Made by a program: the position numbers and the translations under genes
In this document: positions 14,335 through 18,101 of the stretch, piece after piece
How positions within the stretch are numbered: the first letter of the stretch is position 1
How the letters are laid out: every line of letters begins with the position of its first letter
NCBI GenBank assembly: GCA_014874415.1
Contig: JACWAI010000033.1
Span: 1 to 38,423, forward strand
Source of the DNA: Nitrososphaerales archaeon
GTDB lineage: Archaea > Thermoproteota > Nitrososphaeria > Nitrososphaerales > Gagatemarchaeaceae
Length of the DNA stretch: 38,423 nucleotides
Reading direction: 5' to 3'
Notes under the pieces: model-generated
Database searches by the model: none
Told to the model about the DNA's origin: nothing
The model's input: the letters and a program-made list of their open reading frames with translations, nothing else

Positions 14335-14877
14335 TTACCAGTCGAACTTCGAGCGTTTCTTTTCCGCCTTCCCTCTCTCCTCAGGGGGCTTGTACTTCCA
14401 ATCCAGAATCCTCCCCACGTCTTGTTCCGTCTCCGTCTTGATCAGCCGGGGCGGTTCCTCCCTGGTCCACAGTCCCTTCGAGTTGATCACCAGGCCCTTG
14501 TCTCTGGCTTTGATCGTCATCCCGATGGTGTGCCCCTTCGGCCCCGTGGCCCACATCTGCGTCACCCCCCACGCGTCCTCGTTCAGGCAGAGTAACAGGT
14601 TGACCTGTGCTCCTTTGTATACGAAGTTCGAGATCGTCTCCCCGAATGTCGTCACCCTCCCTCCCATCCCGACGACCCTCCGAATCACCCCATCCTTCCA
14701 TTTCCCGAAGTTCCTTCCCTTGGGGATGACGGCGAAGTCGACGTCGTGCACCAAGGGCTCCTTCCTCCTGATGCTCCCGGCGATGAGGCACTTCTTGTAA
14801 AGATCCCGAGTCTTAGACTGGAAATCCAGGGCGATCTTCTCTGCGTCTTCAAGTCGCATGTCCCTCTTGTAAGACAA
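14335..14877 (-). CDS. Minimal family X DNA polymerase (palm plus thumb)
   Basis: A 180-residue protein of the Pol beta superfamily lacking the N-terminal 8-kDa lyase and the PHP domain, close in size to viral minimal PolX. Visible motifs are AGSIRRKE (G34-S35, R37, R38), HDVDF (D45 and D47, metal ligands), the nucleotide/sugar motif WATGPKGHTIGMTIKARDKG (T111-G112), and a C-terminal TEQDVGRILDWKYKPPEER, which matches the PolX thumb end. The third carboxylate is expected in a V-D-L strand but reads QVNLLL, so Asn93 replaces Asp. It starts with TTG at 14877. With the ligase and Ku-like genes upstream on the same strand it could fill gaps in end joining. Confidence 0.8.
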   Translation of the reverse strand: MSYKRDMRLEDAEKIALDFQSKTRDLYKKCLIAGSIRRKEPLVHDVDFAVIPKGRNFGKWKDGVIRRVVGMGGRVTTFGETISNFVYKGAQVNLLLCLNEDAWGVTQMWATGPKGHTIGMTIKARDKGLVINSKGLWTREEPPRLIKTETEQDVGRILDWKYKPPEERGKAEKKRSKFDW

Positions 14878-15002
14878 AATTCTGAACCCTAGCTACCTGC
14901 TCCAGCTTGCATTCAACCAAGACTTGGACCCCGCCTTCTCGAGCCCGACATCACTCTTGAACGACAATTGGACAGGTGGCGTTCCTTCGAGTCTGGAAAC
15001 CC

Positions 15003-15575
15003 TCATATCAGATGACGTTCACCTTGGTTGAAGTAGACCATCTTCTCCTTATTCTGGGGGTTAGGGTCTGTTAGGATGTAATACTCTCTCAGTGTAGGTC
15101 TTACAAAGATGACGATTAGTCCGGCCCCAAGATATCGCACCAAGTTCATTCGATCCCAGTCAAGCCGCCACCCTTCTCCTTTCCTGTTCCATTCCCTACC
15201 AATAATCCTCCGCGAGACTGGTCCCTTGCGGAGGCGTTTCACCCGGGCAGTCGTAATCTCAACCATGTACACACGACCATCGCGCTTGGCCAGGTAATCG
15301 AAAGGGAATTCCCATGACATTCTTTGTATATCGAGAAACCCATTCTCGGAGAGAATCTTCTGTCCGAGTGTCTCGGCTCGTCCTCGAATTTCCTGCGTGA
15401 CTCGCTCGATGCCATTCCACACTTCTCTGAGTTTTTGCTTGTATTCTTTCTGATGTTTTAGCATTGCATCCCTATGTCTCCAGTAATAGTCTCTTCGACG
15501 GGCTTTCTCGTTTTTCCATTTGTTTGGATCTGCTTTGATACGTTCCCATTGGGCGTGATAATCTCGCGTTGACAA
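15003..15575 (-). CDS. Putative PD-(D/E)XK-like nuclease
   Basis: A 190-residue protein. The N-terminal 60 residues are very basic and helical (YYWRHRDAMLKHQKEYKQKL). They resemble the linker of the HNH proteins at 3490-4606 (QYWLHRDEEIRKVREWQ). The C-terminal half has a restriction-fold pattern: a helix (AETLGQKILSENGF), then strand FPFDYLA (D), turn KRDGR, strand VYMVEITTARVK. This reads as D...E-x-T in place of the usual D...E-x-K, with Lys/Arg slightly later. It starts with TTG at 15575. Codons are markedly more A/T-rich than in polX and the ligase, so it appears inserted between them. The nuclease role is inference from fold pattern only. Confidence 0.5.
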   Translation of the reverse strand: MSTRDYHAQWERIKADPNKWKNEKARRRDYYWRHRDAMLKHQKEYKQKLREVWNGIERVTQEIRGRAETLGQKILSENGFLDIQRMSWEFPFDYLAKRDGRVYMVEITTARVKRLRKGPVSRRIIGREWNRKGEGWRLDWDRMNLVRYLGAGLIVIFVRPTLREYYILTDPNPQNKEKMVYFNQGERHLI

Positions 15576-15620
15576 GCTACCTGAACAACGCCTTACGATG
15601 TTGGCTTGTCAGTATTTATG
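15570..15620 (-). promoter_or_regulatory. Inverted repeat and TATA-like box at the nuclease-like gene
   Basis: TGACAAGC (15570-15577) and GCTTGTCA (15604-15611) form a perfect 8-base inverted repeat spaced by 26 bases. It brackets the start region, next to a TATA-like CATAAATAC (about 15611-15619, minus strand) just past the ligase stop. It could be an operator for self-control of the gene or a scar of insertion. Confidence 0.4.
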
Positions 15621-16449
15621 TTAGTTGCGACAAAGTACATTCGTCGGGGGTCTTGTCGTGCCTTATCCTGAGGACGAAGGGGGCCCTGAGCTTCCTGTCT
15701 CTCGTGACCTCCTGAAATCTGACTTCGATCACCGAGCCCTTCTTGATCTTGCGCGGGTCGACACTCTCTACGGTCGATCCCACGTTCCCCAGCTCAACCA
15801 CCTGGCCGTTGTCATCGTAGACAGCCACAGACCACGACCTCGCGAGCCCTGTCTTTCTCATCTCTGTCGTCTCGACGAACCCCGTGACGAAGACGTCGAT
15901 GGTGTCGAACTTCTTCAGCTTGAGCCATGAGTTCGGCTGCCCATAGCTCGAAAGGGGGTTCTTGACGACGACCCCTTCCCGTCCCGCCCTGACCTCATCG
16001 TCCCTGAGCTCGTTGATCTTGTCCACCGATCGGGCAAGAGTGCAAGGAACCTCTAGCCCCGTCCCCTTGAGAATCTCCCGAAGTATCTTCTTCCGCTCTG
16101 TGAGCGGTTTGGGCCTGACGTCGCGGTCGTCCACCTGCAGCACGTCGAACAGGAAGAGCCCCTTCGCCTCCTTTGCAACGTACTCCCCATCCAAGATCAT
16201 CCTGTTGGGAGCGTGAAGGAACTCGGGCACCCTGGAGAAGACCTGTGGGGTGCTTTTCGGGGTGTAGATTCCGCCGTGCTTGCTTGAGAGGACCAGCTTG
16301 TCTCCGCTCTTGAAGAGGAAGACCCTGATGCCGTCGTACTTCGCTTCGACCAAGCTCGGGAGCGGGTTCTTGCTCAGCCAGGTGCCGAGCTCGAGCTTGA
16401 CCGCCTTGGAGTAGTTCTCCTGGACATACGTCGGGAGCTCTTCGCTCAT
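15616..16449 (-). CDS. Minimal ATP-dependent DNA ligase (LigD/LigC type)
   Basis: A 277-residue ligase made of only nucleotidyltransferase and OB domains, the form used in prokaryotic end joining. Motif I is EAKYDGIRV with K37 as the AMP-accepting Lys. Motif III is ILDGEYV (D87, E89), followed by FDVLQVDDRD. Motif IV is EGVVVKNP (E158, K163), motif V SWLKLKK, and the OB fold ends in IEVRFQEVTRDRKLRAPFVL. It lacks the N-terminal domain of the replicative archaeal Lig1 (about 550-600 residues), so it is not the replicative enzyme. ATG at 16449 is five bases past the stop of the Ku-like gene; an in-frame extension to 16656 is antisense-like and rejected. Confidence 0.92.
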   Translation of the reverse strand: MSEELPTYVQENYSKAVKLELGTWLSKNPLPSLVEAKYDGIRVFLFKSGDKLVLSSKHGGIYTPKSTPQVFSRVPEFLHAPNRMILDGEYVAKEAKGLFLFDVLQVDDRDVRPKPLTERKKILREILKGTGLEVPCTLARSVDKINELRDDEVRAGREGVVVKNPLSSYGQPNSWLKLKKFDTIDVFVTGFVETTEMRKTGLARSWSVAVYDDNGQVVELGNVGSTVESVDPRKIKKGSVIEVRFQEVTRDRKLRAPFVLRIRHDKTPDECTLSQLT

Positions 16450-16454
16450 CCTAC

Positions 16455-17300
16455 TTACTTCGAGAGCACTACCTTCGGCTTCTTCCTGGCCACAGGGACG
16501 GCGGGGAGCCTCGACGACCCCTTCTCCTCGACCAGGGCCCAGGCGTCGTCGAGCTTGAGGATCCCTTCGCTCAGCCCCATCAGCAGCCAAAGGCGGCCGT
16601 CCTTCCTCTCGTAGGGGTAAATCACACTCGTGTAGAAGTTGTAACCTCTTCCCCACGAGAAGAAGGCCACGAGCGCCATATTCTTCTCGATGAGGTATCT
16701 CGCCAGCTGCGTCACCCGTGAGTTGGTCTCCGCGACCTTCTTGTCGGTGTCAGGTGCGAGCTGGTAGACCTCTTTGAACTTGTATTCCGAGACCCTTTCG
16801 ATGGGCACGAACCCGTCCGGGTCCACCTCGACCTTGGTCGTCCGCTCGAAGGGCTCCACCTCCTCTCCTTCCTGCCTGTCGACCGTCTGGTCCAGCGGCA
16901 CCTCTATCCACTTCCCGGTGAACTCCAGCTCGTACTTCAGGAAGTACCTCTTCTCCGTCCTGACCGTCACGGGGAAATCGCCCTTGTACCTCACGAACTT
17001 CTTCGCCTCCTCCGGGGTGACCTCCTGGACGTCCAGCCTCTCCCCGTTGGGTCCCTCCTTGTAGCGGTAGATCCTCGGCACCTCCCTGCTCACTACCTCC
17101 TTCCCGCTCTTCTTGTCGAGCTTCACCACTTTGACCGGCTGGAGGTCACCATGCGCCTTCGCGGCACGCAGGTGGTACTCCACCGCCCCTAGCCCGAGCG
17201 TGGGTATGTTCAGGCTCAGCACGCCACGCCATGAGGCGCGCGATACGGCTGCGCTTTCCGCCTGCTTCTCAACTTCAGCGAAGATGTCCTTCTTCGGCAT
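16455..17300 (-). CDS. Ku-like DNA end-binding protein (divergent)
   Basis: A 281-residue protein whose length and block order match prokaryotic Ku. The N-terminal RASWRGVLSLNIPTLGLG corresponds to the Ku opening (A-x-W-x-G-x-x-S-F-G). A YRYKEGPNGERLDVQEVTPE block corresponds to the Ku YEY...VVLTDEDL region. FVPIERVSEYKFKEVYQLAP and MALVAFFSWGRGYNFYTSVI then correspond to the I-D-P-I-Y-F and repeated beta-barrel strands. There is an extra acidic/charged loop (DRQEGEEVEPFERT) in the middle. The ATG at 17300 sits behind a perfect AAGGAGG site. The ligase follows five bases later, the classic Ku-ligase pairing. Similarity is low, so the call is partly contextual. Confidence 0.65.
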   Translation of the reverse strand: MPKKDIFAEVEKQAESAAVSRASWRGVLSLNIPTLGLGAVEYHLRAAKAHGDLQPVKVVKLDKKSGKEVVSREVPRIYRYKEGPNGERLDVQEVTPEEAKKFVRYKGDFPVTVRTEKRYFLKYELEFTGKWIEVPLDQTVDRQEGEEVEPFERTTKVEVDPDGFVPIERVSEYKFKEVYQLAPDTDKKVAETNSRVTQLARYLIEKNMALVAFFSWGRGYNFYTSVIYPYERKDGRLWLLMGLSEGILKLDDAWALVEEKGSSRLPAVPVARKKPKVVLSK

Positions 17301-17391
17301 CCTGCCTCCTTAGAGCTCTCCCGAGATAATTAACATTGCTGAAGCTGAACTCGGCGAGAACGCTTTTCCGCGGGTCCGGGACGGTTTCCCC

Positions 17392-18101
17392 GTGAAGCAT
17401 TTCGTCGGGGTATCAGGTTTCAGTTACGCCGCCTGGAAGGGGAAGTTCTACCCAGCGAGGCCAAGAGCGAGCAGTTCCTCCGGCTCTATGCGGAGCGCCT
17501 TGGAAGCGTCGAGATCAACAGCTCGTTCTACTCGGCACCGAGCGCCGCGATGGTGAAGAGCTGGGCGGCCAAGACTCCGGAGGGGTTCAGGTTCGCCTTC
17601 AAATCCCCCCGCCTTATCACCCACATATCCAAGCTCGGCGAAGGGTCGTACGAACCAGCCAAGAAACTCTCGAGGACAATCGACTCACTGGGGCCCCGGC
17701 GCGGCCCCGTCCTGTTCCAGCTCCCGCCTTTCTTGCGGTTCGATCGCGAGGCGCTCGATGGATTCCTGTCCCACACCTCAGACGTTGAGCCGAAGGTGTT
17801 CGAGTTCAGGCACGAGTCCTGGCTGAACGACGCCACCTATGACCTTCTCGAAGAGCACGGCGCAGGGTTCTGCATCGCCGACACCGAAGACATGGAGCCG
17901 GTGTTCAAGGTCACTGGAGGGTTGGCCTACTTTAGGCTGAGAAAGGACTCCTACGACAGGAGCGCCATCGACACCTGGTCGGACAAGATAGTGAAGTCGA
18001 CTGCGGGCGCGAAAGAATGTTACGTCTACCTTCGGCACGACGAGGCCGGGGAGAACGCCCTGCTCGCTGAAAAGCTGGCGGAAGCGCTGAGGGCGCGCTG
18101 A
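17392..18101 (+). pseudogene. DUF72 family gene with frameshift
   Basis: DUF72 proteins are TIM-barrel proteins of unsettled function. The natural N terminus is readable from GTG 17392 (VGVSGFSYAAWKGKFYP). After about base 17452 the frame must shift to read SEAKSEQFLRLYAERLGSVE and INSSFYSAP. It then continues without break through TPEGFRFAFKSPRLITH, GPVLFQLPPFLRFD, FEFRHESWL and AYFRLRKDSYDR to the stop at 18099-18101. One base missing near 17451-17454 explains it. An open frame from ATG 17550 alone would lack the first strands of the barrel. Either a recent null mutation or a sequencing error is possible. Confidence 0.8.

Follow-up and report, generated by a model that had tools for sequence, protein, structure and literature searches.

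A conserved Ku–ligase–PolX operon points to a lineage-specific type of end joining in Gagatemarchaeaceae

A 38,423-nt stretch of DNA from a Nitrososphaerales archaeon of the family Gagatemarchaeaceae (hereafter the window; contig 14 of a draft genome of 1.69 Mb, 91.6% complete) carries on one strand the genes for a divergent Ku, a minimal ATP-dependent DNA ligase and a minimal protein of the DNA polymerase X family (PolX) in which one catalytic position is altered. This locus most likely represents, with a probability of about three in four, a lineage-specific type of non-homologous end-joining (NHEJ) module. All three open reading frames (ORFs) were confirmed at the coordinates and on the strand given by an earlier sequence-only reading of this DNA, and the AAGGAGG site, the 5-nt spacing between the Ku stop and the ligase ATG, and the grouping of the genes were equally borne out; that reading had omitted the altered catalytic triad of PolX and a further 190-aa ORF lying between ligase and PolX.

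Related Ku genes occur at 19 other public loci, all in archaeal metagenome-assembled genomes and nearly all labelled Thaumarchaeota or Nitrososphaerales. At 18 of these, Ku, ligase and PolX form an uninterrupted, co-directional run in this order, and at the 19th a contig edge falls inside Ku while the rest of the trio was recovered from a different contig of that genome; because contiguity, order and strand are kept in 18 of 19 loci and the last is cut by a contig end, the arrangement is far beyond chance. Outside the trio the neighbourhood varies among loci, with the exception of a DUF72 gene. Several of the genomes carrying these loci (SubAcS15-57, SubAcS15-15, AcS1-13, AcS1-27 and AcS4-109) are treated in the Gagatemarchaeaceae paper (PMC10640624), whose text mentions neither end joining nor DNA repair.

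The same linkage is seen at the level of whole genomes. Among 46 Gagatemarchaeaceae genomes, in which full-size ligases and full-length PolX were distinguished from the minimal forms by their much lower score and by frame length, Ku is present in 18 (in one of them, G307, Ku and ligase were found only as contig-edge pieces). The minimal ligase and minimal PolX are found in the same 18 genomes, together with contig-edge fragments of the trio in three more (G253, G308 and G328), and in no others. The trio is therefore all-or-none across the family (21 genomes with it, 25 without), and the earlier proposal that the three genes form one set stands, no case of non-co-occurrence having been found among relatives. 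When the window is compared with L008, its nearest relative, synonymous divergence (dS) is nearly equal for Ku, ligase and PolX (1.00, 0.97 and 1.07), and the ratio of nonsynonymous to synonymous divergence (omega) is 0.03, 0.12 and 0.13, respectively, Ku being the slowest-evolving of the three (omega 0.03–0.09 overall). The trio is thus co-inherited under purifying selection. Chance ORFs or degenerate genes were considered and rejected (omega 0.03–0.16). At one locus (L026:6001-6835) tblastn recovers the Ku ORF in two pieces, owing to either a sequencing error or a lesion.

The 281-residue protein had been proposed to be a Ku, and its match to PF02735 (E = 1.6e-7; 31.9 bits against a curated cut-off of 25), which is shared by 20 of 20 aligned relatives, confirms this. 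On the bacterial Ku equivalog model TIGR02772 it scores 15.5 bits, below the cut-off of 150, and neither the protein nor the profile of its family retrieved a Ku in sequence searches of the PDB, so that the earlier remark on a Ku divergent enough to escape simple searches is a fair one. With an AlphaFold2 model of low confidence (predicted local distance difference test, pLDDT, 57), built from a shallow alignment of 20 close sequences, most of the top 50 Foldseek matches in the PDB are eukaryotic or bacterial Ku (Ku80/Ku70, Bacillus subtilis Ku and Mycobacterium tuberculosis Ku among the top ones), the best being human Ku80 (E = 1.6e-3, probability 0.99) and none falling under 0.001. Since the model is poor, it is not used for conclusions on bridge geometry or the dimer. 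The PF02735 match spans model positions 18–162 of 190, reaching residue 238 of 281, and the protein closes with a short conserved basic tail (residues 268–281) ending in KKPKVxISK. When divergent and canonical Ku were aligned globally, the C-terminal part was forced, and that alignment was therefore kept out of residue claims. In bacteria the C-terminal arm of Ku helps to recruit LigD; because this arm seems to be absent or replaced here, recruitment of the ligase would have to differ from that of bacterial Ku.

The ligase (PF01068, E = 3.9e-22) consists of the nucleotidyltransferase and OB domains only, with the catalytic lysine and motifs I, III, IV and V intact (K37-x-D39-G40, D87-G-E89, E158 and K177-x-K179), and among solved structures it is nearest to DNA ligases, an archaeal-type enzyme being the best match. 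The motif residues are invariant among relatives except for D39E and E158Q, both in the most divergent ligase of the set (L025:2385-3191, about 50% identity), which is possibly decaying or altered. As one or two further ligases of full size (about 600 aa) are usually encoded in the family genomes, the minimal ligase is probably dedicated to the module.

PolX shows the palm and thumb fold both in sequence (thumb PF14791, E = 5.7e-11) and in its predicted structure (pLDDT 90; structural match to Pol lambda and Pol beta, E = 4e-11), while the 8-kDa domain and the C-terminal PHP nuclease are absent from its 180 residues; the best PDB profile matches are Thermus PolX and a viral PolX of 174 aa. Its GSxRR and DxD motifs are invariant, with omega of 0.05–0.16. 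However, the three carboxylates expected of a DNA polymerase X are incomplete (D45, D47, N93): D45 and D47 are invariant, and the third catalytic position is asparagine in 23 of 23 operon sequences, in a column that aligns with an aspartate in both Thermus PolX and the viral PolX. Both AAC (14) and AAT (7) codons encode this residue, and the asparagine has therefore been maintained by selection while the DNA drifted. Full-length PolX of the same family carries aspartate at this column, as do the stand-alone minimal PolX inspected from other Thermoproteota families. In Pol mu, the aspartate at this position is a ligand of the catalytic metal and the acceptor of the primer proton (PMC5557891), and in B. 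subtilis PolX the single triad change D203A abolished polymerase activity; moreover, noncanonical PolX are enriched alongside NHEJ genes (PMC9226535). The operon PolX is thus probably impaired or altered in catalysis, and these observations make a structural or altered-chemistry role rather likelier than normal gap filling. Stand-alone minimal PolX of 156–205 aa (L097-L101), mostly from families that also have canonical Ku, were observed as well, and no Ku lay alongside them in the fetched stretches.

A survey of 398 Thermoproteota genomes places this operon next to the canonical archaeal systems. Canonical Ku (131–165 bits, Pfam Ku) is present in 23 other genomes, and 22 of these 23 loci include a ligase and a LigD-type primase-polymerase (PrimPol), either within a few kb or in a LigD-like fusion, the remaining one stopping at a contig edge; locus domains were confirmed for examples. 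A minimal PolX beside Ku was found in none of the 23. Conversely, the LigD primase-polymerase domain (PF21686) was found in none of the 46 family genomes, and given that canonical loci have PrimPol and the family has none, PolX occupies the place of PrimPol in the Ku operon. The sequence-only reading had PolX replacing the LigD primase-type polymerase: the replacement itself holds, by operon position and by the lack of PrimPol, whereas a polymerase role is called into question by the invariant asparagine. Its further claim that such a set is rare in archaea applies to the Ku–ligase–PolX form, found in a single family, and not to archaeal end joining at large, in view of the 23 canonical genomes. 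A stand-alone 3'-phosphoesterase (PF13298) is present in 26 of the 46 family genomes, unlinked to the trio (in the window genome at G000:C61:8844-9212), and more often with the trio (17/21) than without it (9/25; p = 0.003, a statistic that ignores phylogeny).

The DUF72 gene next to Ku (PF01904, E = 2.4e-54; Table 1) belongs to a short paralogue class, here class C, and two other DUF72 classes occur in family genomes regardless of the trio. A first count of DUF72 near the trio (8 of 20 loci) mixed paralogues, L022, L024 and L025 carrying other classes, and class C alone was therefore used for co-occurrence, classes being set by match length and score and checked on 20 fetched copies. Class C is present in 18 of 21 genomes with the trio and in 3 of 25 without it (Fisher p = 6e-7, phylogeny being ignored), and in 5/5 versus 1/10 when only good genomes are counted. 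Of the three exceptions, two come from genomes with a completeness of 53% and 67%, and in the remaining one the class C copy carries an internal stop. Class C adjoins the trio in several loci and is separate in others. A DUF72 gene also lies 3' of the ligase in 14 of the 23 canonical Ku loci (L102-L104, L127, L129, L131-L136 and L138-L140). The nearest solved relative is TM1631, for which a comparison of binding sites predicted DNA binding in the manner of endonuclease IV (PMC3828134). A literature search returned no paper joining DUF72 with end joining; the association is new here, and DUF72 is probably a part of end joining that has been overlooked. In the window, the class C gene changes frame near 17450, whether by assembly error or a real lesion, and the relatives are intact.

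The 190-aa ORF explains why PolX lies 738 bp from the ligase in the window, as compared to about 10–60 bp in relatives, since it intervenes there only. Its GC content is 0.46–0.50 versus about 0.60 around it; it has no Pfam match, and relatives in 400 genomes of the class reach E = 3e-4 or weaker only. By eye, it possibly encodes a PD-(D/E)xK-type nuclease.

Table 1. Features of the end-joining locus and its neighbours in the window
Feature	Position	Strand	Remarks
Divergent Ku, 281 aa	16455..17300	-	PF02735; beta-barrel core and, at the C-terminus, a short basic tail that is conserved; canonical arm apparently absent
Shine-Dalgarno AAGGAGG	17305..17311	-	4 nt 5' of Ku ATG; read from sequence
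Minimal ATP-dependent DNA ligase, 277 aa	15616..16449	-	Nucleotidyltransferase + OB; PF01068; motifs I, III, IV, V
Minimal PolX-like protein, 180 aa	14335..14877	-	Palm + thumb only; PF14791; triad D45, D47, N93
190-aa ORF, candidate inserted gene	15003..15575	-	Between ligase and PolX, window genome only
DUF72 (PF01904) paralogue class C, likely fourth component	17392..18101	+	Divergent from Ku; frame change near 17450

Taken together, these data suggest that the module performs Ku-dependent end joining, which we consider likely. The divergent Ku, probably a homodimer, would thread onto broken DNA ends and recruit the minimal ligase, which would seal them, accompanied by the PolX-like protein as a gap- or end-binding subunit. 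With its D-D-N triad, the latter would most likely hold and align gapped ends and the nucleotide, with catalysis strongly reduced or altered. Gaps could then be filled by the full-length PolX with intact triad that is present in most family genomes, and end cleaning may be provided by the DUF72 protein and by the stand-alone LigD-type 3'-phosphoesterase encoded elsewhere in the genome. Only tentatively do we go further and propose that this is a separate branch of end joining, with a D-D-N PolX that is defective as a polymerase acting as the structural gap or end holder within a Ku–ligase complex, and DUF72 as an end-trimming nuclease shared with canonical archaeal NHEJ.

Several observations weigh against this scenario. 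The Ku model is of low confidence, canonical archaeal Ku is matched only weakly in a profile comparison (probability 8%, E = 0.004), and the canonical C-terminal arm and tail, some 65 residues, seem from the sequence to be missing or replaced. Full-length PolX was not found in the window genome itself, and asparagine can bind metal, so that the operon PolX may retain activity, for instance with manganese. Finally, both co-occurrence statistics above disregard phylogeny, and no biochemistry was found for any member of the module.

Alternatively, the minimal PolX could be a working gap-filling or ribonucleotide-adding polymerase despite its asparagine, directly replacing the LigD primase-polymerase: it sits in the Ku operon at the position of PrimPol in canonical archaeal operons, PrimPol is absent from the family, its GSxRR and DxD motifs are kept under selection, and a 174-aa palm-and-thumb PolX is known to be active (PMC5330486). 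We nevertheless consider this unlikely, as the asparagine is without exception in the 23 sequences, loss of one triad residue was sufficient to abolish the activity of B. subtilis PolX (PMC9226535), and most family genomes have an intact-triad PolX. Still less probable is a Ku-fold DNA binder without any end joining, the operon then serving nick or gap (base-excision) repair through ligase and PolX; the strong divergence of Ku and its seemingly absent arm would fit, as would the PolX–ligase gene associations without Ku reported in Methanomicrobia (PMC9226535), but Ku is the slowest-evolving gene of the trio and is never missing where ligase and PolX are complete.

A mobile-element or defence-related DNA-processing set, using Ku, ligase and nucleotidyltransferase for something other than joining chromosomal breaks, could account for the patchy presence of the trio within one genus, the differing outer neighbours and the apparently inserted ORF inside the window operon. 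Yet no relative of Ku, PolX or the 190-aa ORF turned up in the viral contigs scanned, nor any relative of Ku among the plasmids searched, and a mobile origin is therefore unsupported; phage and plasmid matches to PolX are distant. Equal dS of the three genes, their slow, vertical-looking divergence and the lack of any recurrent mobile-element gene beside the trio argue in the same direction, making this explanation highly improbable. We thus favour a lineage-specific NHEJ module, unlike any of the archaeal end-joining sets with which it was compared.

Like the NHEJ system of Methanocella paludicola (Ku, LigD-type primase-polymerase, phosphoesterase and ligase), the module is archaeal and made of split genes, with Ku and an ATP-dependent ligase, but no PrimPol was found in the family, and the module further differs in having PolX within its operon, a much more divergent Ku and a phosphoesterase encoded away from the trio. 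With bacterial Ku–LigD it shares a single Ku gene (a homodimer being expected) and a dedicated ATP-dependent ligase, which here is fused to neither polymerase nor phosphoesterase, and its Ku falls far below the bacterial model cut-off. Canonical Thermoproteota PrimPol–Ku–ligase(phosphoesterase)–DUF72 operons (L102-L104, L127-L141) have Ku, ligase, a nucleotidyl-transferring protein and DUF72 in common with it; they differ in their Ku (355–454 bits on the canonical model), in using PrimPol instead of PolX, and in a phosphoesterase usually fused to the ligase. The noncanonical prokaryotic PolX of Prostova et al. 2022 (PMC9226535) likewise have an altered triad and a genomic association with NHEJ, but are about 570 aa long, keep PHP and vary in their triads, as opposed to the single invariant D-D-N of the short, PHP-less protein described here. 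The PolX of African swine fever virus (ASFV; 174 aa), among the best PDB profile matches, similarly has palm and one further domain only, yet keeps all three aspartates (49, 51 and 100) and has error-prone polymerase activity (PMC5330486). Eukaryotic NHEJ, with Ku70/80, Pol lambda/mu and ligase IV, follows the same logic of Ku, X-family polymerase and ligase; here, in contrast, PolX lacks BRCT and 8-kDa domains, there are no ligase IV accessory domains, and Ku is encoded by one gene.

Methanocella has been described in a review as the sole archaeon with a complete NHEJ complex (PMC8708640), and one genomic report describes NHEJ acquisition in Nitrososphaerales (PMC7554672). In some families of Thermoproteota, operons with contiguous PrimPol, Ku and ligase genes occur fairly commonly (L102-L104, L127-L141), the ligase usually carrying a fused phosphoesterase, contrary to the statement that Methanocella alone has the complete set.

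The Gagatemarchaeaceae, archaea of acid soils, thus show a separately organised, compact end-joining system that is overlooked by the standard bacterial Ku model. With so few components, it provides a natural test of the minimum number of parts needed for end joining, and of whether an X-family protein can serve without its full catalytic triad. Finally, the link of DUF72 to two differently built types of archaeal NHEJ gives a testable role to a widespread family of unknown function.

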